DNA of 64,000 nucleotides from Pseudomonas mendocina. GTDB taxonomy: Bacteria > Pseudomonadota > Gammaproteobacteria > Pseudomonadales > Pseudomonadaceae. The notes under the pieces were generated by a model. It saw nothing but the letters and a program-made list of their open reading frames with translations, was not told the DNA's origin and did no database searches. A program made the translations under genes and the position numbers. Numbering within the stretch: position 1 is the first letter of the stretch; each line of letters begins with the position of its first letter. Positions 1,937-62,044 of this stretch are shown in pieces. The DNA is taken from NCBI RefSeq assembly GCF_900636545.1, contig NZ_LR134290.1, positions 2,604,001 through 2,668,000 of the forward strand. The letters are read 5' to 3'.

Positions 1937-1963
1937 AGTGAATGCGCCCTGATTAATTGGTTC
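1937..1963 (-). promoter_or_regulatory. AlgU/RpoE-like promoter candidate for the Rho-N-like gene
   Basis: On the minus strand GAACCA (1963-1958) and TCACT (1941-1937) are separated by 16 bases, 34 bases upstream of the start at 1903. The -35 GAAC core and the TC of the -10 agree with the AlgU pattern; the other positions are imperfect. Confidence 0.35.
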
Positions 1964-1993
1964 CCGGTTTCGGATGACCGGCGGCGATTGTTC

Positions 1994-2021
1994 GAACCTC
2001 CAGGCATCAACGTCGCTCAGA
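1994..2021 (+). promoter_or_regulatory. AlgU/RpoE-like promoter candidate for the MgtC-type gene
   Basis: GAACCT at 1994-1999, a 17-base spacer and TCAGA at 2017-2021 lie 29 bases before the start at 2051. It faces away from the similar element for the minus-strand gene, so one short intergenic region would drive both genes. Confidence 0.45.
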
Positions 2022-2050
2022 AGGAAAGCGTCCCAGGAGATCGAACGAAG

Positions 2051-2575
2051 ATGGACATACTCGAACGAATTCTTACCACCCTGATGCAGGAGTTCTCCGA
2101 CCTCGGCCAGGTGGAGCACATCACTCGTGCCACGTTGCGCCTGCTTCTGGCCATGTTCCTTGGCGGGCTGCTCGGCTACGAGCGCGAGGTGATGGGCAAG
2201 GCCGCCGGCATGCGCACGCACATGCTGGTCTGCCTCGGCGCAGCGATCTTCGTCATGGCCCTGGAGCAGGACGGCGCCGAAGCCGATGCAATGAGCCGGG
2301 TGATCCAGGGCATCGCCGCGGGCGTCGGTTTTCTCGGCGCCGGCACCATCCTCAAAGGCCAGAACATTTCCGACGTCAAAGGCCTGACCACCGCAGCCGG
2401 CCTGTGGGCCTCGGCCGCCATCGGCGTGGCGGTCGGCCTCGGGCGCGAGGCCACCGCCGTGCTGTCCACGGTGATTGTGCTGGTGGTGCTACACCTCATG
2501 CCACTGATGGTAGATCCAGGCACCAGAACCAAGCCGGACGACCAGGGCGATGAAAAGCCGGGCGACAGGCGATAA
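2051..2575 (+). CDS. MgtC/SapB family inner-membrane protein
   Basis: Encodes 174 residues with about four hydrophobic segments. The family signature is present: LGGLLGYERE, then GMRTHMLVCLGAA, then GVGFLGAGTILK and GLTTAAGLWASAAIGVAVGLG. MgtC proteins are inner-membrane factors needed at low Mg2+ and, in pathogens, modulate the F1Fo ATPase; homologues outside that setting are poorly defined. The protein lacks the long C-terminal ACT-like domain of Salmonella MgtC and ends in a charged tail. ATG 2051 is preferred over in-frame ATG 1988 because an AGGAG lies just before it and residues 1-21 of the longer form have no family character. Confidence 0.85.
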   Translation: MDILERILTTLMQEFSDLGQVEHITRATLRLLLAMFLGGLLGYEREVMGKAAGMRTHMLVCLGAAIFVMALEQDGAEADAMSRVIQGIAAGVGFLGAGTILKGQNISDVKGLTTAAGLWASAAIGVAVGLGREATAVLSTVIVLVVLHLMPLMVDPGTRTKPDDQGDEKPGDRR

Positions 2576-2607
2576 CCGTCAGCCCGGTGAACGGGCAAAA
2601 ACTGCCT

Positions 2608-2635
2608 GAACTTTTCCCACTGCCTTCGCCTCGGA
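2608..2635 (+). promoter_or_regulatory. AlgU/RpoE-like promoter candidate for the glgE operon
   Basis: GAACTT at 2608-2613 and TCGGA at 2631-2635 are separated by 17 bases, 92 bases before the glgE start. The -35 hexamer is a perfect match to the AlgU consensus. Confidence 0.5.
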
Positions 2636-2727
2636 ATTTCTGACAGGTGCAGCGCTTCGCGCGCTGTCGCAAACCTGCCTGCCCATCCCTTCGAACACGT
2701 CTGCCAGGCGTAGAGGAGCCAGGAAAG

Positions 2728-4710
2728 ATGCCGTCCCCGCAGCATGCCGACCAGACCGTCAGACACGCCATTGCCCAACCCAGAATCGCCATCGAAGCGG
2801 TACAGCCGATCATCGAAGGCGGCCGCTTCGCCAGCAAATGCCTGAGCGGCCGGCCGTTGCCGGTCAGTGCGGTGATATTCAGCGATGGCCATGAGCAACT
2901 GGCCGCTGATCTGCTGTGGCGCGCGGGCGGCGAAGCTACCTGGCAGCGCACGCCGATGCAGGCGCTGGGCAATGATCGCTGGAGCGCAGAGCTGCGCATC
3001 GACCAGCAGGGCCGTGGTGAATTTGCCATCGAGGCCTGGCTGGACGTTTACGCCAGCTTCCGCCAGGAACTGGTGAAGAAGCTCGGTGCGGGTGTGCCGG
3101 TAGAGCTCGAACTGCAGGAGGGCGCGCAGCTGGTCCGGCGTATCGCCGCGCAGGCCCCGGAACCATTGCGTGCCGAGCTTACAGCGCTGATCGAACGCAT
3201 GGAGGCCTCGCAATCGCAGTCTGAACGCGAGGCGGTGTTGATCGATCCTTCGGTCAATGAGCTGATGCGCCGCGCCGAATATCGGCCCCATCTGCTGCGC
3301 ACGGCCAACTACCCGCTGGACGTGGAACGCAACCTGGCCGAGTTCGCCAGTTGGTACGAACTGTTTCCCCGCTCGCTGGGCGAGGAGGGCCGCCACGGCA
3401 CCTTCGCCGACGTGCAGGCGCGCATCCCCGAGATCGCCGCCATGGGCTTCGACGTGCTGTATTTTCCGCCCATCCATCCCATCGGCCGCAGCCATCGCAA
3501 GGGGCCGAACAACAGCCTGAGCGCCGGCCCGGACGACCCCGGCAGCCCCTACGCCATCGGTAGCGAGGAGGGCGGCCACGACGCCGTGCACCCCGAGCTG
3601 GGCAGCCTGGAAGACTTTCGCACGCTGGTGCGCGTGGCCCGTGAACATGGCCTGGAGGTGGCGCTGGATTTTGCCGTGCAGTGCTCGCCCGATCACCCCT
3701 GGCTCGAGCAGCACCCCGGCTGGTTCAGCTGGCGCCCGGACGGCAGCATTCGCCATGCCGAGAACCCGCCGAAGAAGTACGAGGACATCGTCAACGTCGA
3801 GTTCTACGCCGAAGCGGCCATGCCCGACCTGTGGCTGGCATTGCGCGACGTGGTGCTGGGCTGGGTGGAGCAGGGCGTGACACTGTTTCGCGTCGATAAC
3901 CCGCACACCAAGCCGATGCCGTTCTGGGAATGGCTGATCGCCGACGTGCGTGAACGCCATCCCGAGGTGATCTTCCTCTCCGAGGCCTTCACCCGCCCGG
4001 CCATGATGGCGCGCCTGGGCAAGCTCGGCTTCAGCCAGAGCTACACCTACTTCACCTGGCGCAACACCAAGGCCGAGCTGCAGGCCTACTTCGAAGAGCT
4101 TAACCAGCCGCCCTGGCGCGATTGCTACCGGCCGAACTTCTTCGTCAACACGCCGGATATCAATCCCTATTTCCTGCAGCGCAGCGGCCGGCCCGGCTTT
4201 CTCATCCGCGCCGCGCTGGCGACCATGGGCTCCGGCTTGTGGGGCATGTATTCGGGCTTCGAGCTGTGCGAGGCCGAGCCGGTGCCGGGCAAGGAGGAGT
4301 ACTTCGATTCGGAGAAGTACCAGCTGCGCCCACGCGACTACCAGGCCCCCGGCAACATCAACGCCGAGATCACCCGGCTCAACCAGATTCGCCGCGAGAA
4401 CCCGGCGTTGCAGACCCATCTGGGCTTCCAGGCCTACACCGCGTGGAACGACAACATCCTTTACTTCGGCAAGCGCACGGCTGATCTGAGCAACTTCATC
4501 CTGATCGCCATCAGCCTCGATCCGCATCACGCCCAGGAAGCGCACTTCGAACTGCCGCTGTGGGAACTGGGCCTGCCAGACGATGCCTCGCTGGCCGGTG
4601 AAGACCTGATGAACGGCCACCGCTGGACCTGGCACGGCAAGGTGCAGTGGATGCGCATCGAACCCTGGCACCTGCCTTTCGGCATCTGGCGAATCCAGAC
4701 CGCCCGCTGA
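2728..4710 (+). CDS. glgE: GlgE, alpha-1,4-glucan:maltose-1-phosphate maltosyltransferase
   Basis: Encodes 660 residues, the normal GlgE length. GlgE (GH13_3) transfers maltosyl units from maltose-1-phosphate onto growing alpha-1,4-glucan in the cytosol. An N-terminal domain of about 190 residues leads into the GH13 barrel. The nucleophile is Asp390 in LFRVDNPHTKP and the acid/base Glu419 in FLSEAFTRP, very close to the numbering known for Streptomyces GlgE. The DVLYFPPIHPIGRSHRKGPNN block is the usual GlgE active-site region (read as two halves around the PPIHP). The start at ATG 2728 follows GAGGAGCCAGGAAAG; an upstream GTG at 2647 is less likely. It heads the operon with treS-maltokinase and glgB, which supply the substrate and branch the product. 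Confidence 0.95.
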   Translation: MPSPQHADQTVRHAIAQPRIAIEAVQPIIEGGRFASKCLSGRPLPVSAVIFSDGHEQLAADLLWRAGGEATWQRTPMQALGNDRWSAELRIDQQGRGEFAIEAWLDVYASFRQELVKKLGAGVPVELELQEGAQLVRRIAAQAPEPLRAELTALIERMEASQSQSEREAVLIDPSVNELMRRAEYRPHLLRTANYPLDVERNLAEFASWYELFPRSLGEEGRHGTFADVQARIPEIAAMGFDVLYFPPIHPIGRSHRKGPNNSLSAGPDDPGSPYAIGSEEGGHDAVHPELGSLEDFRTLVRVAREHGLEVALDFAVQCSPDHPWLEQHPGWFSWRPDGSIRHAENPPKKYEDIVNVEFYAEAAMPDLWLALRDVVLGWVEQGVTLFRVDNPHTKPMPFWEWLIADVRERHPEVIFLSEAFTRPAMMARLGKLGFSQSYTYFTWRNTKAELQAYFEELNQPPWRDCYRPNFFVNTPDINPYFLQRSGRPGFLIRAALATMGSGLWGMYSGFELCEAEPVPGKEEYFDSEKYQLRPRDYQAPGNINAEITRLNQIRRENPALQTHLGFQAYTAWNDNILYFGKRTADLSNFILIAISLDPHHAQEAHFELPLWELGLPDDASLAGEDLMNGHRWTWHGKVQWMRIEPWHLPFGIWRIQTAR

Positions 4711-4726
4711 ACAACGGAGTAACACC

Positions 4727-6781
<2,055 letters not shown>

Positions 6782-8021
6782 CCGATGCCTTCAGCCTGCC
6801 GCAGTTCAGCCAGCAGGTTCTGCGCCTGCTGCGTGAGCAGGCAGTGCTGCGCAGCGCTGGCGGCGAATTGCAGTTCCGCGCCGAGGCGGCGCTGCTGGCA
6901 CTCGAAGGTATCGACGAGAACGACTTCAAGCTGCTCTCCGCAGAGCAGTCCAACAGCTCGGCGCTGATCGGAGGGCAGGTGCTGCTCAAGCTACTGCGTC
7001 GCGGCTTCGCCGGTATCCACCCGGAAGTGGAGATGGGGCGTTTTCTGACCGATCACGGCTACGCCAACGTCGCACCATTTCTTGGCGAAGTGGTGCGGGT
7101 CGACGAGCAAGGCCAGCCCCATACACTGATGGTGATGCAACGTTATCTGGACAATCAGGGCGACGCCTGGCAATGGACGCTCAACACCCTCGACCGCGCC
7201 ATCCGCGATCAGTTGGCCGGCGGTACCGCCGATCCGGATGTCGATGCGTTGGGCGAACTGCAACAGTTCGCCGGCGTGCTCGGCAAACGCGTCGGCGAGA
7301 TGCACGCGGTACTGGCGCGGCCGGTTGAGAATCCGGACTTCGGTTATCAGCTCAGCGGCGAGCGCGACAGCGCCCACTGGGCCAAATCCATCACGGCGCA
7401 GCTGCAGGAAGCCTTGCAGGCTCTGGCTCGTCAGCGGGACGCCCTGAGCCCGGCGACAGCCGAACAGGCCGACTGGCTGCTGGCCAGGGAGAAATCCTTG
7501 CTGGAAGCCGTCACCCGCCTGGCAACGCAGGCGGCAGGTGGCCTGCGCATACGGGTGCATGGCGACCTTCACCTGGGCCAGGTCCTGGTGGTGCAGGGCG
7601 ATGCCTACATCATCGACTTCGAGGGCGAGCCCAACCGCTCGCTGGAGGAGCGCCGCCAGCGCCACAGTCCGTTCAAGGACGTTGCCGGCATGCTGCGCTC
7701 CTTCGACTACGCGGCCGCGGTAGCCCAGCGCAACGCCGGCGGCGTGGAAGGCGCGGCGGACGCCCAGCAGGTAGTTCGCGACGTGGTGTCACGCTACCGC
7801 GAGCAAGCGTGCAGTGCCTTTCTCGATGCCTATCGTCTGGCCGCCAACGGCCTGCCCCACGAATGGCACGAACGCGAAGGCGAGGGCGCCGCCCTCGACC
7901 TGTTCTGCCTGGAAAAGGCTGTCTATGAAATCGTCTACGAAAGCGGCCACCGCCCCGACTGGATCGATGTCCCGTTGCAGGGGCTGGTGGATCTCGCTAA
8001 CCAATTGCTAGGAGTGCGACC

Positions 8022-10184
8022 TTGAATCAAAACAGAGTGCAGCGCCTGCAGCGCGCCGAAGATGGCGATCCGTTCAGCTTCCTTGGTCCTCACCCGCAGG
8101 GCGACGAGAGCCTGGTGCGAGTCTGGCTGCCCGGTGCCGACGCGGTGGAGCTGCTGGCCAGCGACGGCTCGCCGCTGGGGCGCATGCACTGCAGCGACCC
8201 GCAGGGCCTGTTCGAATTGCAGCTGCCCCAGGCGCAGCGCTACCGCCTGCGCATCCACTGGCCGGGCAGCGTGCAGGAAACAGAAGATCCCTATGCCTTT
8301 AGCCCGCTGCTGGGTGATACCGACCTCTACCTGTTCGCCGAAGGCAACCACCGTCAGCTGTGGCGCTGCCTGGGCTCGGCACCGGTAGAGCATGAAGGCG
8401 TGCCTGGGGTGCGCTTCGCCGTCTGGGCGCCCAATGCGCGGCGGGTGTCGGTGGTTGGCGACTTCAACAGCTGGGACGGGCGCCGCCACCCCATGCGTTT
8501 GCGCTACCCGGCGGGCGTGTGGGAGCTGTTCATCCCGAGGCTGCAGCCCGGCGAATGCTACAAATACGAAATTCTCGGTGAGCACGGTGTGCTGCCGCTG
8601 CGCGCAGACCCCATGGCGCAAGCCACCGAGGTACCGCCGGCCACCGCCTCGAAGGTGCCACAGGATGAAGCCTTTGCCTGGCAGGACCAGCAGTGGATGA
8701 GCGAACGCCAGCAACGCCATGCTCCGCAGGCACCGCTGGCGATCTACGAGCTGCATGCCGGCTCCTGGCAATGGCATAACGATCATGCACCCGACTGGGA
8801 CGAACTGGCAGAACGGCTGATTCCCTACGTGCAGGACCTGGGCTTCACCCATATCGAACTGATGCCGATCATGGAGCACCCGTTCGGCGGTTCCTGGGGT
8901 TACCAGCCGCTGTCGATGTTCGCGCCCACCTCACGCTTCGGCAGCCCGCAACGCTTCGCTGCCTTCGTCGATCGCTGCCACCGCGCCGGCATCGGCGTGA
9001 TTCTCGACTGGGTGCCTGGGCATTTCCCCAACGATGCCCACGGCCTGGCCGAGTTCGACGGCACCGCGCTGTACGAGTACGCGCACCCGTTCGAGGGTTT
9101 TCACCCGGACTGGAACACCTGCATCTACAACCTCGGCCGCACTGAGGTGCACGGTTTCATGCTGGCCAGCGCGCTGTACTGGTTGCGCGAGTACCACGTC
9201 GACGGCCTACGCGTGGATGCGGTGGCGTCGATGCTCTATCGCGATTATTCGCGTGAAGCGGGGCAGTGGATTCCCAACCGCCACGGCGGGCGCGAGAACC
9301 TGGAGGCCATCGAATTCCTCCAGCATCTCAACGAGGTGGTGCGCAACGAAGTGCCCGACGCGTTGATGATCGCCGAGGAATCCACCGCCTGGCCTGGCGT
9401 CAGTCGCCCGGTGCAGCAGGGCGGCCTGGGCTTCAGCCACAAATGGAACATGGGCTGGATGAACGACAGCCTGAGCTATATCCAGCAGGACCCGATGTAC
9501 CGCCTGCACCATCACCACCAGATCACCTTCGGCCTGCATTACGCCTTCTCCGAGCGCTTTATCCTGCCGATCTCCCATGACGAGGTGGTGCATGGCAAAC
9601 GCTCGCTGCTCGGGCGCATGCCCGGTGATCGCTGGCAGCAATTCGCCAACCTGCGCCTGTTCCTCGCCCTGATGTGGAGCCACCCGGGCAAGAAGCTGCT
9701 GTTCATGGGCTGCGAGTTCGGCCAGTGGGGCGAGTGGAACCACGACCAGCAACTGGACTGGTACCTGCTGCAGTACCCGGAGCATGCGGCTGCCCAGGCG
9801 CTGGTACGCGAGCTGAATCGCCTGTACCGCGAAGAACCGGCGTTGCACCGCCTCGATGACCAGGACAGCGGCTTTCAATGGGTTATCGGTGATGACGCGC
9901 GCAACAGCGTGTTCGCCTGGCTGCGCAAGGGCGGCGAGGGCAGCGCGCCGCTGCTGGTGGTGCACAACTTCACCCCGCAGGTGCTCGATGGCTACCGGGT
10001 CGGCGTACCGCACGCTGGCCGCTGGCAGGTGCTGCTCAACAGCGATGAACGCCGCTGGAGCGGTTCGGGCGCTGGCAGCGAGGGTGAGCTGCACACGGAG
10101 CACCTGGCCGCTCACGGCCAGTCCGATTCGTTGAATCTGCAATTGCCGCCGTTGGCGACGCTGATTCTGCGGCCGGCGCAATGA
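8022..10184 (+). CDS. glgB: GlgB, 1,4-alpha-glucan branching enzyme
   Basis: Encodes 720 residues, the usual bacterial length (E. coli 728). It makes alpha-1,6 branches in alpha-glucan. An N-terminal N1 domain and CBM48 ([19 protein letters not shown] near residue 130-150) precede the GH13_9 barrel. Asp399 in [12 protein letters not shown] and Glu452 in [11 protein letters not shown] are the nucleophile and acid/base, and [13 protein letters not shown] carries the third carboxylate. The start is TTG in TTGA, overlapping the maltokinase stop, with GGAG about eight bases upstream. It is the last gene of the GlgE operon. Confidence 0.95.
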
Positions 10185-13127: not shown

Positions 13128-13155
13128 TGTGAGGTAAGCCGCCAAGTCGAAGTTC
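13128..13155 (-). promoter_or_regulatory. AlgU/RpoE-like promoter candidate for the secreted protein-DUF3182-hydrolase operon
   Basis: On the minus strand GAACTT (13155-13150) and TCACA (13132-13128) have a 17-base spacer, 32 bases before the start at 13096. The -35 is a perfect match. Confidence 0.5.
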
Positions 13156-13284
13156 AGGCTTTTTGATCAAAGGGGCGCCAGACAGAAAAACCCTGAACTC
13201 ATCGCCGTTGCGAAGGCCACAAAGAAAAAGCCGAACCCATCGCTTCGGCTGCAATCGACGCGACGCGCGCGTGAGGGGATCGAT

Positions 13285-20467: not shown

Positions 20468-20495
20468 TTCGAGTGCGGGAGAAAAACAGGGGTTC
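20468..20495 (-). promoter_or_regulatory. AlgU/RpoE-like promoter candidate for the ADH-ybhP-clsB-ybhN operon
   Basis: On the minus strand GAACCC (20495-20490) and TCGAA (20472-20468) with a 17-base spacer lie 59 bases before the start at 20409. Confidence 0.45.
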
Positions 20496-22533: not shown

Positions 22534-24654
<2,121 letters not shown>

Positions 24655-24664
24655 GGTAACGACC

Positions 24665-24919
24665 TCAGGCTTTCGGCGTTTTGGGCGTGCGCGGAGCACG
24701 GGGCTTCTTCAGCAACGCCGGTTGTTCGGCTTCGCTTAGCGGCACCGTCTTGGGTTTGCTGATGCGCCGCGGCTTGGGCGCTGCCGGCGTCTGGGCCTGC
24801 GCCTCGGCTTCGGCCAGTTTGCTGGCCATCTTCCAATGGCGCTCATGCTGGCCATGGGGACGACCTTCGGACTCCCAGATCTGGAAGGCAAATTCGCGGA
24901 TACGCTGTTCATCGATCAT
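24665..24919 (-). CDS. DUF2934 small protein
   Basis: Encodes 84 residues. The first 35 residues (RIREFAFQIWESEGRPHGQHE) are a clear DUF2934 module; the rest is a Lys/Pro/Ala-rich basic tail with repeated PKT and TPK units, likely disordered. It overlaps the end of treY by 11 bases and has AGGAG before the start. Its constant place beside trehalose/glycogen genes in pseudomonads suggests a helper role, but none has been shown to my knowledge. Confidence 0.82.
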   Translation of the reverse strand: MIDEQRIREFAFQIWESEGRPHGQHERHWKMASKLAEAEAQAQTPAAPKPRRISKPKTVPLSEAEQPALLKKPRAPRTPKTPKA

Positions 24920-27680
24920 GGCGTGGCTCCTGTAATGACGGGGTGATGCGAAGCAGATTGACGGGAAACCTGGCCAGTGCAGTGGCGAGTGCGATGCCCT
25001 GATCCGTGGCGGCCTGGCAGTCGCCGAGCATGCCCGTTGCCTGCCGGACATGCAGTGCGTCGGGCAAGACGACCGTGGTGTTGCCCCAGCGCTGTGGCGG
25101 TACGTGCGGCACCGGATGTTCGTCGAGCAGGCCAGCGGCCAGCCGTGGGACGATGACCAGCAGGTGGTCGTCGCCGTGGCTGCGCAGGAAGGCCAGCACC
25201 TGGGCGGCGTGCTCACCGGTGACGCCAAGTGGTTGGTAGCTGCCGTGGCGGAATAGCTGTGGCCGTTCTGCGCGCAAGGCCAGTGCCTGGCGGATCAGCC
25301 ATTGCTTGATGCGCCCATCCTGCCAGCTCTCCAGCCTGGCCTCGGCCGTGACCTCGGCGTGCAGGGCAGCCTGCCGCGCGGGGAAGTCCACCGGGCGGCG
25401 GTTGTCCGGGTCGACCAGGCTGAAATCCCAGAATTCGCAGCCCTGGTAGAGGTCGGGCACACCAGGTGTGGTCAGGCGCAGCAGGCATTGCGCCAGGCTG
25501 TTCAGAGCGCCGGCCGGCGCGATGGCGGACACCGTACTGGCCAGTTCGCGACGCAGCGCCAGGCCATCAGGTTCGACCAGCAGGCGCCGGAGGAAGTCCG
25601 CGCAGGCTGTTTCGTGCTCGTCGTTCGGCGCGCTCCAGGCACTGTTGAGTTTGGCCTCGCGCAGCGCCTTGCGCTGCCATTCGAGCAGGCGCTGCAAGTA
25701 CGCGTCCAGACCTGTGGCATCGTCGGCCTGCAGCCCCAGCGGCCAGCTGCCGATCAGCGCCTGGTAGAGAATCGCTTCTTCGCCACCGTCCGGCGCCTGC
25801 TGCATCTGGCTGCTGCGCAACGATTGAGCGAGGCGCTGCCATTCCCGAACACGCTCGGCGTACCAGGCGGCACGTTCGCTGAGCACTGCCAGGCGCGCAC
25901 GGGAGTCTTCGCCGCGTTTGTGATCATGGGTGGCGGTGGCCAGCAGGTTCTGCGGATGGTGGTCCGCACGCTCGACGCAGGCCTGGTGAAAACGCTCGAC
26001 GCTGGCGCTGAAGTGCTCGGCATCGAAGCCCACGTCATAACGAGAGAGCAGCACGCCTGCGCGATACAACGCAGTGTCTTCGACGGCCTTGGCAGCCACC
26101 GGCGAGGTCAGCTGCTGGAAGCGCGTCAGCGCCTGGGCCCGCAGGCGCCGCGCACGGCCGGGCGGCAAGGTACGCAGGATGGCACCGCCAAGCCAGTCAT
26201 CGAGATGCGGCAGCAAGGGCCAGTCAGCCTCGGCCAGGGTCTGTCGCGCGCCGTCCAGCGCCTGCTGGAAGAAGCGCCGATCCTGCAGCGAGCGGCCACA
26301 GCCCTGGGCGTAGGTGCGATACACCGGGAAATGCACGATCAGCTCGCGCAGCGCCCGGCGGATCGCGCCGAGGGTCAGGTCGCGAGTGGCGATATCGTGG
26401 CGGGCGACATGCAGCAGGCGCTGGGCGACTTCCTCCAGATCGCCGGCCAGCGAACCCTCCAGCACCAGGCGGCGTGCCTGCTGGATCTCCTCCTCGAACG
26501 CTGTAGGCCTGCCGCTAAGCGTTTGCCACAGCTCGCTGAGCGGCAGTTCGCCGTGTGGGTCGTGCTGCAGCAGCGAGACCTGATTCATGAACTCGTAGCC
26601 GGTGCTGCCGTCCACCGGCCACTCCTGCGGCAGCTGTTCGCCTGCGCCAAGGATCTTCTCCACGAAAATGGGGAAGGGCGCATCACCACGCAGTTGCCGG
26701 ATGCGTCGGCGCAGGCGGCTGCAATAGGCGCGTGGATTGGCCAGGCCGTCGATATGATCGATGCGCAGGCCGTCGATCAGCCCACGTTCGATCAGTTCGA
26801 AGACCTTGGCATGGGTCTGTTCGAACACCTGCCGGTGCTCGACGCGCAGCGCGCCAAGCTCGTTGATGTCGAAGAATCGCCGCCAGTTGATATCGTCCGC
26901 CGCGGTGCGCCAACTGGCCACGCGGTAATGCTGACGTTCGAGCAGCGCGTGCAGGCGCTTCTGCGCCGCTTCGTCACCGCCCTGAAAGCCGGCGAGCAAC
27001 GGCGGCACCTTGTGCGCCTGAACGGCCAGTTCGGCGCACAGCTGCGCGGCCTGTGCGCGGCTGGCGTCATCGTTGCCCAGGCGCGCGAAGCGCTGGCCCA
27101 GCGCGCGCAAGTCGGCATCATCGCTGCCGCGCAAGATGCTGGCGTAGCTGGCTGGAGTCAGCGGCAGGCGATGCTCGAAGTGCTGCGCATGGAAGCGTCC
27201 GCGCTGCGCATCGAAGTGCAGCTCCAGGGTGCCGTCGCGCAACGCCTCGCCGTAGTCGCTGCGCAGAAAGGGCACCAGCAGCTGGCCGCTGAGCAAGGGG
27301 TCGTGAGATTGCCACTGGATATCGAAGAAGCTCGCATAAGGGCTGCCTTGCCCCCATTCCAGCACGTCCAGCCACCAGGGATTGCCATCGCCACCGACGG
27401 CCATATGGTTGGGCACTATGTCCAGGATCAGCCCCATGTCATGGGCGCGCAGGGTATTGACCAGCTGCACTAGGGCTTCTTCGCCGCCCAGCTCGGGGTT
27501 GATCCGGGTCGGATCGATCACGTCGTAGCCGTGTTGCGAACCGGGGCGGGCGGTGAGAATTGGCGAGGCATACAGGTGGCTGACCCCCAGCTGCGCCATG
27601 TAGGGCACCTGCGCAGCCGCGTCGAACAGGGTGAAATCCTTGTGCAGCTGCAGGCGCAGCGTTGCGCGCAACTCAGTCAT
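24909..27680 (-). CDS. treY: TreY, malto-oligosyltrehalose synthase
   Basis: Encodes 923 residues. TreY (GH13_26) isomerises the reducing-end maltose unit of maltodextrins to a trehalosyl unit. The start ATLRLQLHKDFTLFDAA with VSHLYASPI and GSQHGYDVIDPTRINPELGG is diagnostic. GLRIDHIDGLANPRAY has the nucleophile and FVEKILGAGEQLP the acid/base. The start at 27680 overlaps the malQ stop by eight bases; the longer frame to 28109 is a shadow of malQ. It works with treZ downstream of GlgA-made glucan. Confidence 0.95.
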   Translation of the reverse strand: MTELRATLRLQLHKDFTLFDAAAQVPYMAQLGVSHLYASPILTARPGSQHGYDVIDPTRINPELGGEEALVQLVNTLRAHDMGLILDIVPNHMAVGGDGNPWWLDVLEWGQGSPYASFFDIQWQSHDPLLSGQLLVPFLRSDYGEALRDGTLELHFDAQRGRFHAQHFEHRLPLTPASYASILRGSDDADLRALGQRFARLGNDDASRAQAAQLCAELAVQAHKVPPLLAGFQGGDEAAQKRLHALLERQHYRVASWRTAADDINWRRFFDINELGALRVEHRQVFEQTHAKVFELIERGLIDGLRIDHIDGLANPRAYCSRLRRRIRQLRGDAPFPIFVEKILGAGEQLPQEWPVDGSTGYEFMNQVSLLQHDPHGELPLSELWQTLSGRPTAFEEEIQQARRLVLEGSLAGDLEEVAQRLLHVARHDIATRDLTLGAIRRALRELIVHFPVYRTYAQGCGRSLQDRRFFQQALDGARQTLAEADWPLLPHLDDWLGGAILRTLPPGRARRLRAQALTRFQQLTSPVAAKAVEDTALYRAGVLLSRYDVGFDAEHFSASVERFHQACVERADHHPQNLLATATHDHKRGEDSRARLAVLSERAAWYAERVREWQRLAQSLRSSQMQQAPDGGEEAILYQALIGSWPLGLQADDATGLDAYLQRLLEWQRKALREAKLNSAWSAPNDEHETACADFLRRLLVEPDGLALRRELASTVSAIAPAGALNSLAQCLLRLTTPGVPDLYQGCEFWDFSLVDPDNRRPVDFPARQAALHAEVTAEARLESWQDGRIKQWLIRQALALRAERPQLFRHGSYQPLGVTGEHAAQVLAFLRSHGDDHLLVIVPRLAAGLLDEHPVPHVPPQRWGNTTVVLPDALHVRQATGMLGDCQAATDQGIALATALARFPVNLLRITPSLQEPRHDR

Positions 27681-33116: not shown

Positions 33117-33144
33117 CCTGACGGGGCGATCGCGACAAAGGTTC
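33117..33144 (-). promoter_or_regulatory. AlgU/RpoE-like promoter candidate for the glgA operon
   Basis: On the minus strand GAACCT (33144-33139) and TCAGG (33121-33117) with a 17-base spacer lie 104 bases before the glgA start. The last base of the -10 differs from the usual A. Confidence 0.4.
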
Positions 33145-33182: not shown

Positions 33183-33210
33183 GAACTTTGCCCAGTGCCG
33201 ACACTTCCAC
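33183..33210 (+). promoter_or_regulatory. AlgU/RpoE-like promoter candidate for the CinA-type amidase gene
   Basis: GAACTT at 33183-33188, 17-base spacer, TCCAC at 33206-33210, 34 bases before the start at 33244. It is the divergent partner of the glgA operon element. Confidence 0.5.
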
Positions 33211-34328: not shown

Positions 34329-34356
34329 GTAGAAGGGCCGGGCGAGGGCGAAGTTC
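34329..34356 (-). promoter_or_regulatory. AlgU/RpoE-like promoter candidate for the DUF4142 gene
   Basis: On the minus strand GAACTT (34356-34351) and TCTAC (34333-34329), 17-base spacer, 33 bases before the start. One of the best matches in the window. Confidence 0.55.
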
Positions 34357-34437: not shown

Positions 34438-34465
34438 GAACGAAGCAGCGCCAGCTCGCCTCAAA
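34438..34465 (+). promoter_or_regulatory. AlgU/RpoE-like promoter candidate for katE
   Basis: GAACGA at 34438-34443, 17-base spacer, TCAAA at 34461-34465, 111 bases upstream of the katE start. Confidence 0.4.
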
Positions 34466-38096: not shown

Positions 38097-38108
38097 GTGC
38101 GTATCCCC

Positions 38109-44514: not shown

Positions 44515-44541
44515 TGTGACTGCCTGATGGTGTGTGAGTTC
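44515..44541 (-). promoter_or_regulatory. AlgU/RpoE-like promoter candidate for the CopD-type gene
   Basis: On the minus strand GAACTC (44541-44536) and TCACA (44519-44515) are 16 bases apart, 66 bases before the start at 44449. Confidence 0.4.
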
Positions 44542-45468: not shown

Positions 45469-45496
45469 GAACGATCAGCGAAGCCTGCGCGTCGGA
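45469..45496 (+). promoter_or_regulatory. AlgU/RpoE-like promoter candidate for the two DUF2383-type genes
   Basis: GAACGA at 45469-45474, 17-base spacer, TCGGA at 45492-45496, 69 bases before the start at 45565. Confidence 0.4.
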
Positions 45497-48099: not shown

Positions 48100-48127
48100 G
48101 TAGAAAACCTGCCACGCCGCACGGTTC
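48100..48127 (-). promoter_or_regulatory. AlgU/RpoE-like promoter candidate for the FAD/Rieske gene
   Basis: On the minus strand GAACCG (48127-48122) and TCTAC (48104-48100), 17-base spacer, 37 bases before the start. Confidence 0.5.
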
Positions 48128-48187: not shown

Positions 48188-48215
48188 GAACTGGCGCGGT
48201 CGGGGCGGACTCATC
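48188..48215 (+). promoter_or_regulatory. AlgU/RpoE-like promoter candidate for the DUF892 gene
   Basis: GAACTG at 48188-48193, 17-base spacer, TCATC at 48211-48215, 131 bases before the start. It is back to back with the FAD/Rieske element. Confidence 0.4.
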
Positions 48216-49924: not shown

Positions 49925-49934
49925 GACTTGATCC

Positions 49935-55110: not shown

Positions 55111-55141
55111 TGCGGATAACGACTCACCTCCGCTGAGCCAG

Positions 55142-55171: not shown

Positions 55172-55232
55172 TCCATCCACCGCAGCAGCGCACCGAAACT
55201 CTCGATGGCGACGCTGGCCTGGCCTGAAATCC

Positions 55233-55260
55233 GAACCTAATCTTCTCCCCGGCGTTCTAA
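55233..55260 (+). promoter_or_regulatory. AlgU/RpoE-like promoter candidate for the ligase-associated repair operon
   Basis: GAACCT at 55233-55238, 17-base spacer, TCTAA at 55256-55260, 28 bases before the start at 55288. Confidence 0.5.
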
Positions 55261-55287
55261 GTTCCACCAATGCGCCAAGGGGATTTC

Positions 55288-56295
55288 ATGGATCTGGTCG
55301 TCGCCCGTCCCGAAGGTCTTTACTGCCCGCCCGGTGATTTCTACATCGATCCATGGCGGCCGGTGGAACGCGCGGTCATTACCCATGCCCATGGCGATCA
55401 CGCCCGCCGCGGCAACGGTCGCTACCTGGCGGCGGCGCCCGGCGCAGGCATTCTGCGCTCGCGTCTGGGCGATGACATCAGCCTGCAGACCCTGGCCTAC
55501 GGCGAACGCCTCGATCATCACGGCGTAACCCTGAGCTTTCATCCCGCCGGGCACGTGCTGGGTTCGGCCCAGGTGCGTTTGGAATACCAGGGCGAAGTCT
55601 GGGTCGCCTCGGGGGACTACAAGGTCGAGCCGGACGGCACCTGCGCACCCTTCGAGCCGGTGCGTTGCCATACCTTCATCACGGAGTCCACCTTCGGCCT
55701 GCCGATCTACCGCTGGCCGTCCCAGGCCGAGATCTTCGCCGGTATCGACGCCTGGTGGCGCGCCAATGCCGCCGCCGGCAAGGCCAGCGTGCTGTTCGCC
55801 TATTCCTTCGGCAAGGCCCAGCGCATTCTCCACGGCATCGACGCCAGCATCGGTCCGATCCTCGTGCATGGCGCCGTGGAGCCGTTGAACGAGGTGTACC
55901 GCGCCGGCGGTGTGCATCTGCCGCCCACCCAATACGCTGGTGATATCGCCAGGAATGACCCGCTGCTGCGTCAGGCGTTGATCATCGCCCCGCCCTCGGC
56001 CGGCGGCAGCACCTGGATGCGTCGTTTTGGCGAGTACAGCGATGCCTTCGCCAGCGGCTGGATGCTGCTGCGCGGCACCCGTAGGCGGCGTGGTGTGGAT
56101 CGCGGCTTCGCCCTCTCCGACCATGCCGACTGGCCCGGCCTGCTCTGGGCCATCGAGCAGACCGGCGCCGAACGGGTGATGGTCACCCACGGCCAGGTCA
56201 ACGTGCTGGTGCGTCATTTGCGCGAGCAAGGCCTCGACGCCCGCGCCTTTCAGACCGAATACGGTGATGAAGACGACGTGGAACCGAGCCCATGA
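55288..56295 (+). CDS. Ligase-associated metallo-beta-lactamase-type DNA exonuclease
   Basis: Encodes 335 residues. A CPSF/Artemis-like metallo-beta-lactamase domain: HAHGDHARR is the two-metal HxHxDH motif, HPAGHVLGSAQVRLEY the next His and VASGDYK the Asp. The beta-CASP part includes ALSDHADWPGLLW with Asp-His, and VMVTHGQ at the end. The family is annotated as ligase-associated 3'-end processing exonuclease. AAGGGGATTTC precedes ATG 55288. It overlaps the ligase gene by four bases. Confidence 0.92.
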   Translation: MDLVVARPEGLYCPPGDFYIDPWRPVERAVITHAHGDHARRGNGRYLAAAPGAGILRSRLGDDISLQTLAYGERLDHHGVTLSFHPAGHVLGSAQVRLEYQGEVWVASGDYKVEPDGTCAPFEPVRCHTFITESTFGLPIYRWPSQAEIFAGIDAWWRANAAAGKASVLFAYSFGKAQRILHGIDASIGPILVHGAVEPLNEVYRAGGVHLPPTQYAGDIARNDPLLRQALIIAPPSAGGSTWMRRFGEYSDAFASGWMLLRGTRRRRGVDRGFALSDHADWPGLLWAIEQTGAERVMVTHGQVNVLVRHLREQGLDARAFQTEYGDEDDVEPSP

Positions 56296-57950
56296 AAGCC
56301 TTCGCCGAACTCTACGCGCGGCTGGATGCCACTACCTCGAGCAACGCCAAGCTGCAGGCGATGCAGGAATATTTCGCCGAAGCGCCGCCAGCGGATGCGG
56401 CCTGGGCGGTGTACTTTCTAGCTGGCGGCCGGCCCCGTCAGATCGTGCCGACAAGGGTGCTGCGCGAGCTGGCCACGCAGCTTTCCGGCCTGTCCGACTG
56501 GTTGTTCGAGGAAAGCTACCAGACCGTTGGCGATCTCGCGGAAACCATCGCCCTACTCCTGCCCGACTCTCAACATGTGTCCGACCAAGGCCTGGCCTGG
56601 TGGCTGGAAGAACAACTGCTGCCCCTGCGCGGCCTGACGCCAGCGGAGCTGGCCGAGCGTCTGCCACCTTTATGGGCGCAGCTGGATCGAGAAAGCCTGA
56701 TGGTCAGCCTCAAGCTGCTCACCGGCGCCTTTCGCGTCGGCGTCTCCAAGCTGCTGGTGACCCGTGCCCTGGCCGGCCTGGCGCAGATCGACGCCAAGCG
56801 TGTGGCGCAGCGCTTGGTCGGCTACACCGACCTGTCGCATCGGCCGACGGCGCAGCGCTACCTGGCGCTGATCGCCGCCGAGTCGGAAGACGAACACGCC
56901 CAGCGCGGCGGCCAGCCCTACCCCTTCTTTCTCGCCCACCCGCTGCAACTGCCGCTTGAGCAGTTCGAGACGCAACTGGGGCCGGCCAGCGACTGGCTGG
57001 TGGAATGGAAGTGGGACGGCATCCGCGCGCAACTGGTCAAACGCGACGGGCGGCTGTGGTTGTGGTCCCGCGGCGAGGAACTGATCACTGAACGCTTCCC
57101 GGAGCTGCACGAACTGGCCGAGGCGCTGCCGGACGGCAGCGTGCTCGACGGTGAACTGGTGGCCTGGAAGGAGCCCGCCACAGACAGCGAGACGGTGTTC
57201 GGCATCCAGCCCTTCGCCCTGCTTCAACAACGCATCGGCCGCAAGACCCTGAGCAAGAAGCTGCTGCAGGACGTGCCCGCCGCGCTGCTGGCCTACGACC
57301 TGCTGGAATGGCGTGGCGAAGACTGGCGGTCACGCCCCCAGGACGAGCGCCGCGCCCGCCTGGAGCTGCTGGTGGCGGAAGTCGGCGATGGGCGCCTGCA
57401 GCTGTCACCGCAACTGACCGGCAGCGACTGGCAGGACTTTGCCCGTCAGCGCGAAGCCTCCCGTGAGCTGGGCGTGGAAGGCATGATGCTCAAGCGCCGC
57501 GACTCCCTGTACGGGGTCGGCCGCACCCGCGATCTGGGCCTGTGGTGGAAGTGGAAGATCGACCCGTTCAGTGTCGATGCGGTACTGATTTACGCCCAGC
57601 GCGGCCACGGTCGCCGTGCCAGCCTGTACAGCGACTACACCTTCGCCGTGTGGGACGACTCCACGCCTGGCGAGCGCGTGCTGGTACCCTTCGCCAAGGC
57701 CTACTCGGGCCTCACCGATGAAGAGATGCGCAAGGTCGATGCGATCATCCGCAAGACCACCGTAGAGAAATTCGGCCCGGTGCGCAGCGTCACCCCGACC
57801 TTGGTGTTCGAGCTGGGTTTCGAGGGCATCGCCCTGTCCAAGCGGCACAAGAGCGGCGTCGCCGTGCGTTTCCCGCGTATGCTGCGCTGGCGCACCGACA
57901 AGCAGGTGGAGGACGCCGATACCCTGGCCACGCTGCAGGGCCTGCTCTGA
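56292..57950 (+). CDS. ATP-dependent DNA ligase (bacterial LigB/C-type)
   Basis: Encodes 552 residues. An N-terminal DNA-binding domain of about 215 residues ([23 protein letters not shown]) precedes the nucleotidyltransferase domain: motif [10 protein letters not shown] with adenylated Lys240, motif III region LDGELVAW, motif [10 protein letters not shown] and motif V WWKWKID, then an OB-fold. It seals nicks using ATP. It is a different family from the Ku-partner LigD. It is co-translated with the exonuclease and helicase. Confidence 0.93.
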
Positions 57951-60562
57951 TGGATCAGCCCGTTCGCCGGCGGAGTCTGTCCGCTGCCTGGTTCGCCCAG
58001 CGCGGCTGGAAGCCTTTCGCCTTTCAGAAGGAGGTGTGGCAGGCAGTCAAGGCAGGCGAGTCGGGCCTGCTGCACGCCTCCACCGGTTCCGGCAAGACCT
58101 ACGCGGTGTGGTTCGCCACCCTGGACCGTTTCGCCACGCCCTCTCCTGCCGTTACCGCCAGCCCTCGCCCGCGCAAGAAACCGGTCATGGCGCCGCTGAC
58201 GGTGCTGTGGATCACCCCGATGCGCGCCCTCGCCGCCGACACCGCCCGCGCCCTGCAGGCGCCCTTGGATGATCTGCAGATTGCCTGGAGCATCGGCCTG
58301 CGCACCGGCGACACCGACAGCAGCGAACGCGCGCGGCAAAGCCGCCGGCTGCCGAGCACGCTGATCACCACGCCGGAAAGTCTGACCCTGCTGCTGACCC
58401 GTGCCGACGCCCGTGAGACCTTCGCTCACCTGCGCATGGTGGTGGTGGACGAGTGGCACGAGCTGCTCGGCAACAAGCGCGGGGTGCAGCTGCAATTGGC
58501 CCTGGCACGGCTGCGTCTGTGGAAGCCGGAGCTGCTGGTGTGGGCGCTGTCCGCCACGCTCGGCAATCTCGACCATGCCCGCGAGGTGCTGATGCAGGCC
58601 GGGCGCCTGGTGCAGGGCAAGCTGGCCAACGACCTACGCATCGACAGCCTGCTGCCGGCCGGTCTGGAGCGCTTTCCCTGGGCAGGGCACCTGGGCCTGC
58701 GCATGCTGCCGCAGGTGGTCGAGGAGCTCGACGCCAGCAGCACTGCACTGGTGTTCACCAACACCCGCTCGCAGGCGGAAACCTGGTACCAGGCGCTGCT
58801 GGAGGCACGTCCGGACTGGGCCGGCCTGCTTGCCCTACACCACGGCTCGCTGTCGCGGGAGGTGCGCGACTGGGTCGAACTGGCGCTCAAGGAGGGCCGG
58901 CTGAAAGCCGTGGTCTGCACGTCCAGCCTGGACCTCGGGGTGGATTTCCTGCCGGTGGAACGGGTGCTGCAGATCGGCTCGCCCAAGGGCGTAGCCCGCC
59001 TGATGCAGCGCGCCGGGCGCTCCGGCCATGCTCCGGGGCGGCCATCACGCGCAACCCTGGTGCCGACCCATAGCCTGGAAGTGCTGGAAGCCGCCGCCGC
59101 GAAAACCGCGGTGGACGAACGCAAGGTCGAGGGGCGGCAGTCGCCGGACAAACCACTCGACGTACTGGTCCAGCACCTGGTGAGCATGGCCCTGGGCGGC
59201 GGTTTCCAGGCCGATGCCATGCTGGCCGAGGTGCGCAGCGCCTGGGCCTACCGCAGCCTTAGCGACGATGAATGGCAGTGGGCGCTGGCCTTCATCCGCC
59301 ACGGTGGCAACTCGTTGACCGCCTATCCCGACTACCGCCGCGCCGAGCCGGACGGCAGCGGCCTGTGGCAGGTGCCCGATGCGCGCCTGGCGCGGCGTCA
59401 TCGCATGAGCATCGGCACCATCGTCAGCGACGCCAGCCTGGCGGTTAAGTACTGGAGCAAGGGCGGCGGTGGTGGCTCGCTGGGCAGCGTCGAGGAAGGT
59501 TTCATCGCCCGCTTGCGCCCCGGCGATACCTTCCTTTTCGCCGGCCGCACGCTGGAGCTGGTGCGGGTGGAGAACATGACTGTCTACGTGCGCCGAGCCA
59601 CCAGCCGCAAGGCGGCGATCCCGCGCTGGAATGGCGGGCGCATGCCGCTGTCCAGCGAACTGGCGGATGCCGTGCTGGCCAAGCTCGATGCCGCTGCGCG
59701 CCATGAATACACCGGCCCGGAGATGCAGTTGCTGCGCCCCTTGCTCGACGTGCAGCAGGCCTGGTCCGCCTTGCCCGGCGCCGCCACGCTGCTGGCGGAG
59801 GTGCTGAAATCCCGCGAAGGCTGGCATCTGTTCCTCTATCCCTTCGCCGGGCGTTCGGTGCATCTGGGGCTGGCCAGCCTGCTGGCCTGGCGCCTGGCCC
59901 GCGAGCAACCACTGAGCCTGTCCATCGCGGTCAATGATTACGGCCTGGAGCTGCTCTGCCCCAGCGAGGTGGATTTCGCCGCGCGGCTCACGCCCGAGCT
60001 GTTCAGCACGGACGATCTGTTGGCCGACGTAATGGCCAGCCTCAACGCCGGTGAACTGGCGCGCCGGCGCTTTCGCGAGATCGCCCGCATCGCCGGCCTG
60101 GTATTCAGCGGCTACCCCGGCGCGCCGAAGAGCACCCGCCAGCTACAGGCCTCCAGCGCCTTGTTCTTCGACGTGTTCAGCCAATACGACCCGGGCAACC
60201 TGCTGCTCGGCCAGGCGCAGGAAGAAGTGCTGCGCCAGGAGCTGGACGTGCAGCGCCTGCAGCACACCCTGCAGCGCCTGCAGTCGCGCCGGCTGGATAT
60301 CCGCACGGTCAGGCGCGCCACGCCGTTCGCCTTCCCGCTGCTGGTGGAACGCTTTCGCGAAAGCCTGAGTTCGGAGAAACTCGCTGACCGCATCCGGCGT
60401 ATGGTGGCCGATCTGGAGCAGGCCGCCGGGCCGGGCGGCTATCAGGACCCGGCATTCGCCATCGACGACGAGCGCCCGGCGCCGCGCAAAGGCCGCTCTC
60501 CGCGTCAAGGCAAGGACGGCCTGCCAAGACCACCAGCGCAGCGCCCGAAAAAACGCCGCTGA
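57950..60562 (+). CDS. Lhr-type ligase-associated DEAD/DEAH-box DNA helicase
   Basis: Encodes 870 residues. Walker A STGSGKT at residues 44-50, motif [11 protein letters not shown], motif III SATLG, motif [26 protein letters not shown] and [12 protein letters not shown]. The C-terminal half has the Lhr-like winged-helix and ring part. Lhr2/Lhr-core family members are 3'-5' helicases found with ligase and PdeM. The start shares a base with the ligase stop. Confidence 0.93.
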
Positions 60563-60572
60563 TAGAGACCAA

Positions 60573-61247
60573 ATGACCGAAACCCCTACCAATTATCACA
60601 GCGTGCAACTAGCCGGTACCGAACTCTGGCTGCTGGCGGACAAGGCCATCTGGTGGCCGCAGCAGCAGGCACTGCTGATCGCCGATATCCATATCGGCAA
60701 GGCTGCGGCCTATCGTGCCCTGGGTCAGCCGGTGCCACAGGGCACCACCGCGGCCAATCTGCAGCGGCTGGACGCCCTCTTGCAGCGTTTCGCTTGCCGG
60801 CAACTGATCTTTCTCGGCGATTTTCTCCACGCCCCCGGCTCACGCACGCCGGCCACACTGGCGGCGCTGGCCGAATGGCGCGAGCGGCATGCCGGGCTGG
60901 GCATGACACTGGTGCGCGGCAACCACGACAAGCGCGCGGGCGACCCACCTGAAGACCTGCGTATCGAGGTGGTCGAAGAACCTTTGCTGCTCGGCCCATT
61001 CGCCCTGCAGCACGAACCGCGCGCGCATGCTACCCACCACGTGTTGGCGGGCCACCTGCATCCGGCCTACCCATTGCGCGGCCGGGGCCGGCAACGCCTG
61101 CGCCTGCCGTGTTTCGTGCTGGGTGATGAGGTCAGCCTGCTGCCGGCCTTCGGCAGCTTCACCGGCAGCATGACCTTTCGCGTCGAACCCGGGCAGCGCA
61201 TCGTGGTGGTCGGCGACGGCGGTATCTGGCCCGTACACGAGTCCTGA
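60573..61247 (+). CDS. pdeM: PdeM, ligase-associated metallophosphoesterase
   Basis: Encodes 224 residues. Calcineurin-like phosphoesterase motifs: ADIHIGK, FLGDFLHA, RGNHDKR, HVLAGHLHPAY. PdeM of this operon type is a DNA nuclease/phosphoesterase tied to DNA damage response. It starts 10 bases after the helicase stop. Confidence 0.9.
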   Translation: MTETPTNYHSVQLAGTELWLLADKAIWWPQQQALLIADIHIGKAAAYRALGQPVPQGTTAANLQRLDALLQRFACRQLIFLGDFLHAPGSRTPATLAALAEWRERHAGLGMTLVRGNHDKRAGDPPEDLRIEVVEEPLLLGPFALQHEPRAHATHHVLAGHLHPAYPLRGRGRQRLRLPCFVLGDEVSLLPAFGSFTGSMTFRVEPGQRIVVVGDGGIWPVHES

Positions 61248-61250
61248 GGC

Positions 61251-61670
61251 TTACAGGCGCTGCAAGGTCGCTGGATCGGCCTCGCCGTCGTAGAACGCCT
61301 GCAGCACCTCGGCGAACAGTGGCTGGGCCGGCGCGGCGGCCTGGAACAGGGTCATGCTCGAACGCAGCTTGAGGTCGTCCGGCGAACCCATGATCTGCCG
61401 CACCGGCCGCCCGCGATGCGACAGCAAGGCACGCACGCAATCTTCCAGACGTGCGCCCAGCAACGGATGCGCCAGGTAGGCACGCGCCTCGTCGATGCCG
61501 GAGATACCGTAGCGCTCGGCCATTTCGCTACGACCGAGGCCGCGCAACTGCGGAAACACGTACCAGATCCAGTGGCTGCGCTTGGCCCCGGCACACAGCT
61601 CATCAAGGGCCCGCGCATAGTCGCGCTGCTGCGCCTCGACGAACCGCGTCAGGTCGAACGGATCGTTCAT
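61251..61670 (-). CDS. DUF1810 protein
   Basis: Encodes 139 residues. FVEAQQRDYARALDELCAGAK and SHWIWYVFPQLRGLGRSEMA are the DUF1810 signature, and HPLLGARLEDCV the next. The family (calpastatin-like label) has no known role. The start overlaps the stop of the gene at 61667 by four bases. Confidence 0.88.
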   Translation of the reverse strand: MNDPFDLTRFVEAQQRDYARALDELCAGAKRSHWIWYVFPQLRGLGRSEMAERYGISGIDEARAYLAHPLLGARLEDCVRALLSHRGRPVRQIMGSPDDLKLRSSMTLFQAAAPAQPLFAEVLQAFYDGEADPATLQRL

Positions 61671-61987
61671 CGTCCTGTCCGTTCGTGCCCCATCGGCGTG
61701 GTATCGGGCAGCACGTCCTGCGTGGCGAAGTCCGGGCTGTGCACCTCGGAATCCAGCGGCATATGCGCGTAGCGGGCCTTTTCGGCACCTGGCGCGAGTG
61801 GGTCGAACTGCCCCGCGCGCTTGGGCTCGTGATGCCTCTGAAGGCCGCAAGCCAGTAGCCACCCGCCCAATGCCGCGCCCGCCAGGCCCAGCACTCCGCC
61901 GCGCCGCAAGCTCAAGCCCAGCAAGGTCAAACCGCCGCCGATCGTTGCGCAGCGCTCCCAGTCATGAAGATTGCTGTGTTCTTTCAT
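61667..61987 (-). CDS. DUF2892-like small membrane protein
   Basis: Encodes 106 residues. ERCATIGGGLTLLGLSLRRGG and LAGAALGGWLLACGLQ give two membrane segments like DUF2892, resembling the protein at 378-722. The C-terminal 50 residues are polar (PLDSEVHSPDFATQDVLPDT). It is upstream of and overlapping the DUF1810 gene. Function unknown. Confidence 0.75.
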   Translation of the reverse strand: MKEHSNLHDWERCATIGGGLTLLGLSLRRGGVLGLAGAALGGWLLACGLQRHHEPKRAGQFDPLAPGAEKARYAHMPLDSEVHSPDFATQDVLPDTTPMGHERTGR

Positions 61988-62017
61988 GTCGAGTATTTCC
62001 CAAAGGATGACCCGATA

Positions 62018-62044
62018 ACTGACAGGGCCGCTGTTCAGGCGTTC
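62018..62044 (-). promoter_or_regulatory. Weak AlgU/RpoE-like promoter candidate for the DUF2892-DUF1810 operon
   Basis: On the minus strand GAACGC (62044-62039) and TCAGT (62022-62018), 16-base spacer, 31 bases before the start at 61987. Confidence 0.3.

Follow-up and report, generated by a model that had tools for sequence, protein, structure and literature searches.

Putative AlgU-type promoters before stress-defence units in a 64-kb region of the Pseudomonas mendocina genome

The window considered here, meaning the whole stretch of DNA analysed, comprises 64,000 nt of Pseudomonas mendocina (assembly GCF_900636545.1, contig NZ_LR134290.1, positions 2,604,001-2,668,000). It is probably the central part of a stress-defence island where many transcription units possess their own promoter of the sigma-E type, read by an extracytoplasmic function (ECF) sigma factor, AlgU being the most likely user. 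That ECF sigma-E/AlgU-type promoters precede many of the stress units is well supported, by enrichment within the same genome and by replication and conservation in relatives. The predicted promoter form is an A-rich stretch followed by GAAC[T/C] (often with CCT before it), 17 (or 16) bp, TC and frequently an A three bases on. We infer that these sites act as transcription starts. AlgU (sigma-22) is released from MucA under stress, and in the mechanism proposed envelope, osmotic or alcohol stress would free it, upon which AlgU-RNA polymerase would jointly start the units of the island. The output would be the synthesis of trehalose and alpha-glucan, catalase HPII, ferritin-like proteins, lipid enzymes and a ligase-associated DNA-repair operon.

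Candidate promoter sites and their excess over chance

The preliminary description of this DNA, made from the letters alone, had listed fifteen sites of the form GAAC(NN)-N16/17-TCNNN, and all fifteen are present, on both strands with eight on the minus strand (Table 1; sites are named by their left ends). As described, the spacing is mostly 17 (N17 in 12/15, N16 at 1937, 44515 and 62018), and the full GAACTT occurs exactly at four sites (2608, 13128, 33183 and 34329), GAAC being common to all fifteen by selection. Every site also faces an open reading frame (ORF) start, 27-130 nt past the -10 element; of several possible starts, the one whose ribosome site was better was taken. Genes were called with a codon-usage script, not a published gene finder, and some starts were corrected by eye; two of the ORFs faced (1524-1903 and 61667-61987, minus strand) have no Pfam match. 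The -10 element reads TCNNA in eight of the fifteen; for all matches with N16/17, TCNNA is not significantly enriched over other spacings (9/29 vs 11/67, p 0.09). Three further sites were missing from the list, namely 13233 (plus strand, before glgP), 44743 (minus) and 38675 (plus).

Table 1. Putative AlgU-type promoters and gene units of the window (scores are those of the position weight matrix; frequencies refer to same-genome background intergenic DNA)
Feature	Position	Strand	Sequence, score or content
Weak site before the 1524-1903 ORF	1937..1963	-	8.3, background level
AlgU-type promoter, MgtC-like gene	1994..2021	+	15.0, one per 29 kb
AlgU-type promoter, glgE-treS	2608..2635	+	GAACTT-N17-TCGGA; 21.3, or 15.5 without the glgE family in the matrix (one per 19 kb)
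Unit of glgE, treS, a further ORF in another frame and glgB	2728..10184	+	TreS and GlgB above cut-off
AlgU-type promoter, 12668/DUF3182/hydrolase/CBS genes	13128..13155	-	GAACTT-N17-TCACA; 20.5, none equal in background
AlgU-type promoter, glgP	13233..13259	+	GAACCC-N16-TCGAC; 6.6 (background level) once the glgP family is left out
AlgU-type promoter, Zn-alcohol dehydrogenase/EEP/PLD/LPG-synthase-TM genes	20468..20495	-	16.6, one equal in background
glgA-containing operon	22534..33013	-	GlgA confirmed; start 33013
AlgU-type promoter, glgA operon	33117..33144	-	GAACCT-N17-TCAGG; 19.0, none equal in 114.7 kb of background
Weak site before CinA	33183..33210	+	GAACTT-N17-TCCAC; 8.0, background level
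AlgU-type promoter, DUF4142 gene	34329..34356	-	GAACTT-N17-TCTAC; 13.2, one per 10 kb
AlgU-type promoter, katE	34438..34465	+	GAACGA-N17-TCAAA; 14.5 without the katE family, one per 29 kb
Catalase HPII (katE)	34576..36714	+	NF008422 above cut-off
AlgU-type promoter, UPF0093/HemJ-like, cytochrome oxidase and CtaG genes	44515..44541	-	N16; 18.2, one equal in background
AlgU-type promoter, DUF2383 gene	45469..45496	+	16.2, two equal in background
Weak site before FAD oxidoreductase/Rieske gene	48100..48127	-	6.9, background level
AlgU-type promoter, DUF892 ferritin-like gene	48188..48215	+	15.8, two equal in background
AlgU-type promoter, exonuclease-ligase-helicase-PdeM operon	55233..55260	+	GAACCT-N17-TCTAA, ATG 55 nt further; 12.0 without the exonuclease family (one per 8 kb)
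Ligase-associated DNA damage response operon	55288..61247	+	Exonuclease, ATP-dependent ligase, DEXH (Lhr-type) helicase, endonuclease PdeM
Possible promoter, 61667-61987 ORF/DUF1810	62018..62044	-	N16; 11.5, one per 5.7 kb

The bare pattern GAAC-N16/17-TC occurs 77 times in the window, with 25 occurrences more than half intergenic, which means that the fifteen had been selected; the selection still catches a real excess. The density in shuffled intergenic DNA, which the preliminary description had proposed as a check, is not equal to that observed: in 200 dinucleotide shuffles (15-bp margins) the intergenic matches number 27 against 7.0 for both spacings together, 17 against 3.5 for N17 (reached in 0/200 shuffles) and 10 against 3.5 for N16 (reached in 1/200). 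The intergenic density of 1.90/kb exceeds that of 20 stretches elsewhere in the genome (0.32/kb) about 6-fold, and GAAC-N17-TC in 36 such stretches (43 in 114.7 kb of intergenic DNA) leads to an expectation of 3.4 in the window. When the spacing itself is used as the control (30-bp margins), N17 stands out with 18 matches against a mean of 6.1 over 16 other spacings (p 6.5e-5), and N16 is not significant (10 vs 6.1, p 0.09). A feature for which no search had been made points the same way, as A makes up 45% of positions -10 to -7 before GAAC when the spacing is N16/17 and 26% at other spacings (p 3e-4). Screens conducted with no prior motif are consistent with this. Among about 69,600 tetramer-gap-dimer words the first place goes to GAAC-N19-TC, equal to GAACnn-N17-TC (log10 p -6.9, runner-up -6.0; about 0.01 after correction), and CCTGAAC is the top 7-mer with 14 occurrences against 1.7 expected (log10 p -8.4, runner-up -4.3). 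Over the whole genome, raw GAACTT-N16/17-TC shows no excess (233, against 343 when the pattern is reversed), and the four GAACTT sites of the window are near the 2.9 expected by length from the genome count, all four being intergenic with N17. This indicates that the signal is regional and intergenic.

A position weight matrix, likewise proposed in the preliminary description, was built from the upstream regions of the algU, glgE, katE, glgP and ligase-associated exonuclease (exo) orthologs in relatives; as the training set consists of GAAC-N16/17-TC sites, matrix and pattern are not independent of each other. At a score of at least 12 it finds 13 intergenic sites in the window against 1.33 expected (p 1.8e-9; the background is 17 sites in the 36 same-genome stretches), ten of the 13 being listed ones, and no coding sites. 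The richest 20 kb of the window contain 9 such sites, and none of the 36 other 20-kb stretches has more than 3; on the left flank the adjoining 20 kb hold two and the next 20 kb none, and 40 kb to the right hold none. Matrices built from single families give, at score 10, 18 vs 2.5 expected for glgE, 12 vs 2.6 for katE, 13 vs 4.8 for exo and 7 vs 2.9 for glgP. Sites of the four families with window orthologs were rescored with their own family left out. Nine of the fifteen listed sites then reach scores that background intergenic DNA yields once per 19-115 kb.

Conservation in related genomes

Conservation was assessed in relatives with about 62-86% protein identity at the compared genes, a site being counted when a sense GAAC-N16/17-TC lay within 350 bp upstream. 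The sites before four window genes are conserved. This holds for 20/21 glgE orthologs, of which the form GAACTT-N17-TCGGA is present in 12/21 (L001, from the own genome, left out), for 19/19 katE loci of at least 65% identity (G006 and G021 were left out as they offer 43% catalases only), for 19/21 glgP orthologs, where the site is similar, and for 14/16 exo orthologs; all 24 algU loci likewise carry a site. As the score of the glgP site falls to background without the glgP family, that promoter rests on conservation, and conservation in relatives also rescues 55233. The -10 element at katE is TCACT in 16/19 orthologs, a sequence not found in the window's own katE site, and GAACTT, which most orthologs of glgE and exo have, is not the -35 form at those of katE and glgP. 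Other spacings recur at katE (N22 in 10/19) and at glgP (N12 in 10/21), the N16/17 peaks being less clean there than that of exo.

The exo promoter was sampled more widely. Among the best 80 of 580 matches, 73 possess a site at -53 to -61 before the ATG (N17 in 59, N16 in 14), with an A at the TCNNA position in 66 of these 73, while other spacings match in 0-7 of the 80. The seven loci lacking a site are L282, L291, L298, L319, L328, L338 and L342. Five of the 80 share an identical 60-nt upstream sequence with one of the 16 other exo loci; the two sets overlap.

Conservation is patchier elsewhere. For glgA, counted as one locus per genome (the second G006 copy, L096, left out), GAAC-N17-TC lies at a similar position in 4/21 relatives and GAAACTT variants are seen in G001 and G013, the strict pattern within 350 bp giving N17 in 5/21 and N16 in 1/21. 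The sole close ortholog of the unit at 20468, in G013, has no site directly upstream. In the same genome GAACTT-N17-TCCGAT faces CinA at the corresponding place. The CBS-domain gene, last in the run driven from 13128 in the window, has its own such site in both G001 and G013, which suggests that control has been kept through rearrangement and that there is selection for it.

Twenty stretches from the islands of eight relatives (42 kb intergenic) were further compared with 20 control stretches (76 kb). GAACTT-N17-TC occurs 11 times in the islands and not at all in the controls, every other spacing occurring 0-3 times; with TCNNA required, the islands hold 18 matches at N17, 16 at N16 and 1-9 at other spacings.

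Some observations on the relatives stand apart. Upstream of the DUF2383 orthologs (L234-L255) GAAC-N22-TC recurs in 13/22 as a shared spacing. Three members of the genus (G008, G012 and G014) have no match to glgE, katE, glgP, glgA, exo or DUF2383, though algU is present (93-99% identical), so that the stress genes go missing together. In addition, exo is absent from G006, G007, G015, G018 and G021.

The sigma factor and the competing explanations

The genome encodes 17 genes of the sigma-70 type. Ten ECF proteins were scanned for family membership, and among the ten only L179 passes the RpoE model (TIGR02939, 321.8 bits vs a cut-off of 236), which identifies it as AlgU. Two GAACTT-N16-TC sites lie upstream of this gene, a two-site autoregulatory arrangement seen only there; single GAAC-N16-TC matches are also found upstream of L182, L188 and L178 (the latter presumably rpoH). 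Four of the ten ECF proteins (L181, L182, L184 and L187) look FecI-like.

The AlgU regulon of Pseudomonas and Azotobacter is published with a GAACTT-like -35 element, 16/17 spacing and a TCNNA -10 element (PMC10651043), to which the window compares with the same spacing, full GAACTT in four and TCNNA in eight of its fifteen listed sites; trehalose and glycogen genes are reported members (PMC10651043; Harty 2019 via PMC8084333). The window differs in having mainly a spacing of 17, the flank CCTGAAC and a dense clustering in one region. During encystment, GlgB, TreZ, a Zn-alcohol dehydrogenase and glycogen phosphorylases are missing from an Azotobacter algU mutant, which also has less GlgX and MalQ (PMC10651043). 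The promoter predicted there for the glgB unit is GAACTT-N17-TCggA, identical to the glgE site of the window in -35 element, spacing and -10 element (PMC10651043). Trehalose in P. aeruginosa is placed under AlgU in work cited by PMC8084333 (Harty 2019). For P. syringae, osmotic and oxidative genes are reported to be raised by AlgU together with five DNA-repair genes, whose names the available portions do not give (PMC9436044), and an AlgU-like motif is located at 47 mapped 5' ends, in a report whose available portions do not name the window's genes (PMC3247240). The available portions of three other papers (PMC9262955, PMC4362757 and PMC7641640) hold nothing decisive.

Several findings weigh against AlgU-type promoters throughout the window. 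The -10 sequence TCTGA is present at none of the fifteen listed sites (genome-wide, GAACTT-N16/17-TCTGA has three matches, none in the window), and the katE and glgP sites read GAACG/GAACC, not GAACTT. A matrix trained on algU alone finds no excess in the window (2 vs 4.4 expected at score 8, 1 vs 1.8 at score 10); this matrix is narrow since the algU promoters, which have N16 and a different flank, are near-identical to each other. The glgP-only and exo-only matrices are borderline at score 8 (p 0.05 and 0.06). Sites 34329, 55233 and 62018 score at one per 6-10 kb, and 9 kb of intergenic DNA could yield such sites by chance, while 1937, 33183 and 48100 are at background (one per 0.8-1.3 kb). 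The earlier count of about fifteen AlgU/RpoE-like promoters is thus generous, as nine score well, three are near chance level (with 55233 rescued by its conservation) and three are at background. Among relatives, the sites before DUF2383 (N17 in 5/22, below the 13/22 of N22) and DUF892 (five ortholog loci, no clear conservation) are not visibly retained. Six of the 11 island GAACTT-N17-TC matches belong to glgE orthologs, and the looser GAAC-N17-TC, with 38 matches in the islands, is not far above N12 (30) and N16 (29). Finally, the treZ mRNA of Azotobacter did not fall significantly when AlgU was missing (PMC10651043).

Could the pattern be an artefact of composition or of selection? The lack of a genome-wide GAACTT-N16/17-TC excess, the three background-level sites and the choice of fifteen from 77 bare matches would fit this, but for the set as a whole the shuffles, spacing controls, same-genome background, word screens and conservation make an artefact very improbable. 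For the individual sites at 1937, 33183, 48100, 34329 and 62018 it is possible. Alternatively, these might be real ECF promoters whose sole or main reader is a different ECF factor, with AlgU as a minor user. The window promoters do differ from those of algU itself in spacing and in the CCTGAAC flank, the algU-only matrix is not enriched, and among the many sigma-70-type genes both L176, which we take to be SigX, and L186 lie outside the family scan. An unclassified factor or SigX is nevertheless unlikely as the principal user, as the RpoE model singles out AlgU among the ten proteins scanned, four of which look FecI-like, a two-site GAACTT autoregulatory arrangement was seen at algU only, and the algU-mutant data fit the trehalose and glycogen genes (PMC10651043).

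Another alternative comes from P. aeruginosa, in which the corresponding region PA2134-PA2190 is about as long (60.69 kb) and shares glgP, katE, treS, glgB, a phospholipase, a Zn-alcohol dehydrogenase, glgX and glgA with the window (PMC1525188, PMC3224232). That region, glgP, katE, glgA and glgB included, follows one profile, and 32/57 genes are reported as regulated by quorum sensing and/or RpoS (PMC1525188, PMC3224232), which speaks against AlgU as the common regulator. The comparison is made by the published gene list, on which the ATP-dependent ligase of P. aeruginosa is not shown to be of the same kind. An island controlled by RpoS and quorum sensing, with the GAAC motif secondary, is improbable here. 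The RpoS-like -10 word CTA[CT][AG]CT, a weak consensus, is not enriched in the window (1 vs 2.7 expected), and GAAC-N17-TC is the top word, although RpoS promoters are too weakly defined for this to be decisive. Dual control is possible and indeed likely. The interpretation in the preliminary description is supported in part: AlgU-type promoters before many stress units are well supported, and AlgU itself is the probable regulator, set against the published RpoS and quorum-sensing control of the P. aeruginosa counterpart.

Units of the island and adjoining observations

The repair operon is assigned by four models (TIGR04122, TIGR04120, TIGR04121 and TIGR04123), all above cut-off in one gene run, together with a WH_Lhr match. 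All four families are common to this operon and the Exo-Lig-Lhr-PdeM/MPE operon of P. putida, and PMC7437997 cites Lhr and MPE from a P. putida cluster of repair genes. A literature search gave no statement tying AlgU to the ligase-associated repair (Lhr) operon, the lone co-mention being in unrelated places. Of the carbohydrate genes, the first ORF of the treS unit is presumably glgE, judged by gene order (NCBIfam gives only weak amylase-family matches), and the members of the glgA operon which we take to be treZ, malQ, treY and glgX are likewise named by their order. The MgtC-like protein is below curated cut-offs. Other families in the window are glycogen phosphorylase, PLD, EEP, LPG-synthase-TM, Zn-alcohol dehydrogenase, CinA, DUF4142, DUF2383, DUF892, UPF0093, FAD/Rieske, cytochrome oxidase and CtaG.

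When neighbouring genes on one strand with gaps below 150 bp are joined into operons, 36/55 genes belong to units with a strong- or medium-scoring listed site (one gene lies upstream of its site) and 40/55 to units with any listed site. By this rule, 'most of the window' is a fair description for those 36 genes, with operons that are themselves predicted. The regulon is largely a known one, and so is the regulator, most likely AlgU, whose putative promoters here form an unusually distinct regional cluster. What looks new is the regional density of the promoters, the N17/CCTGAAC flavour of the species and the widely conserved promoter of the repair operon.

The alphaproteobacterial EcfG general stress regulon has a GGAAC -35 element, a 16-17 spacing and similar stress genes, with a sigma family and -10 element different from those of AlgU. 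We propose tentatively, as a nearly even call, that the repair operon is a conserved AlgU target wherever Pseudomonas has it, and that it is gathered here with trehalose, catalase, ferritin-like and lipid genes in an island of about 70 kb, most units with their own AlgU-type promoter of the N17/CCTGAAC form, as a Pseudomonas counterpart to the EcfG response that has been kept through rearrangement. For a region known in P. aeruginosa as a set of stationary-phase genes, many without a known function, the AlgU reading would offer a hypothesis of one regulator that can be tested. It would also give the repair operon a trigger, envelope or osmotic stress, acting via the promoter seen in 73 of the best 80 of 580 matches.

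Some minor observations concern the sequence around these units. The genes treS (4727-6781) and the next ORF (6697-8025) are in different frames, and both match one frame in the compared relatives; the frame break (4727-8025) may mean that the gene is split, that a frameshift has occurred or that the sequence contains an error. The HrpL box has the consensus GGAACC-N16-CCAC, and a look-alike, CCTGAACTC-N16-CCACAAA at 13192-13224, is located beside the glgP promoter, probably by chance. A stretch of 1.5 kb (37242-38771) contains no called gene and holds a 113-aa ORF at 38109-38450 on the minus strand; the fair AlgU-type site at 38675 (plus) faces no nearby same-strand called gene, and as Rfam gives no match at gathering thresholds it is not explained by a known RNA. 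Within about 8 kb to the left of the window (L257, at 12379, 14519 and 19035) there are three more sites with an A-tract and GCTGAAC/CCTGAAC, one lacking the TC at -10, and the left edge of the island seems to lie outside the window.

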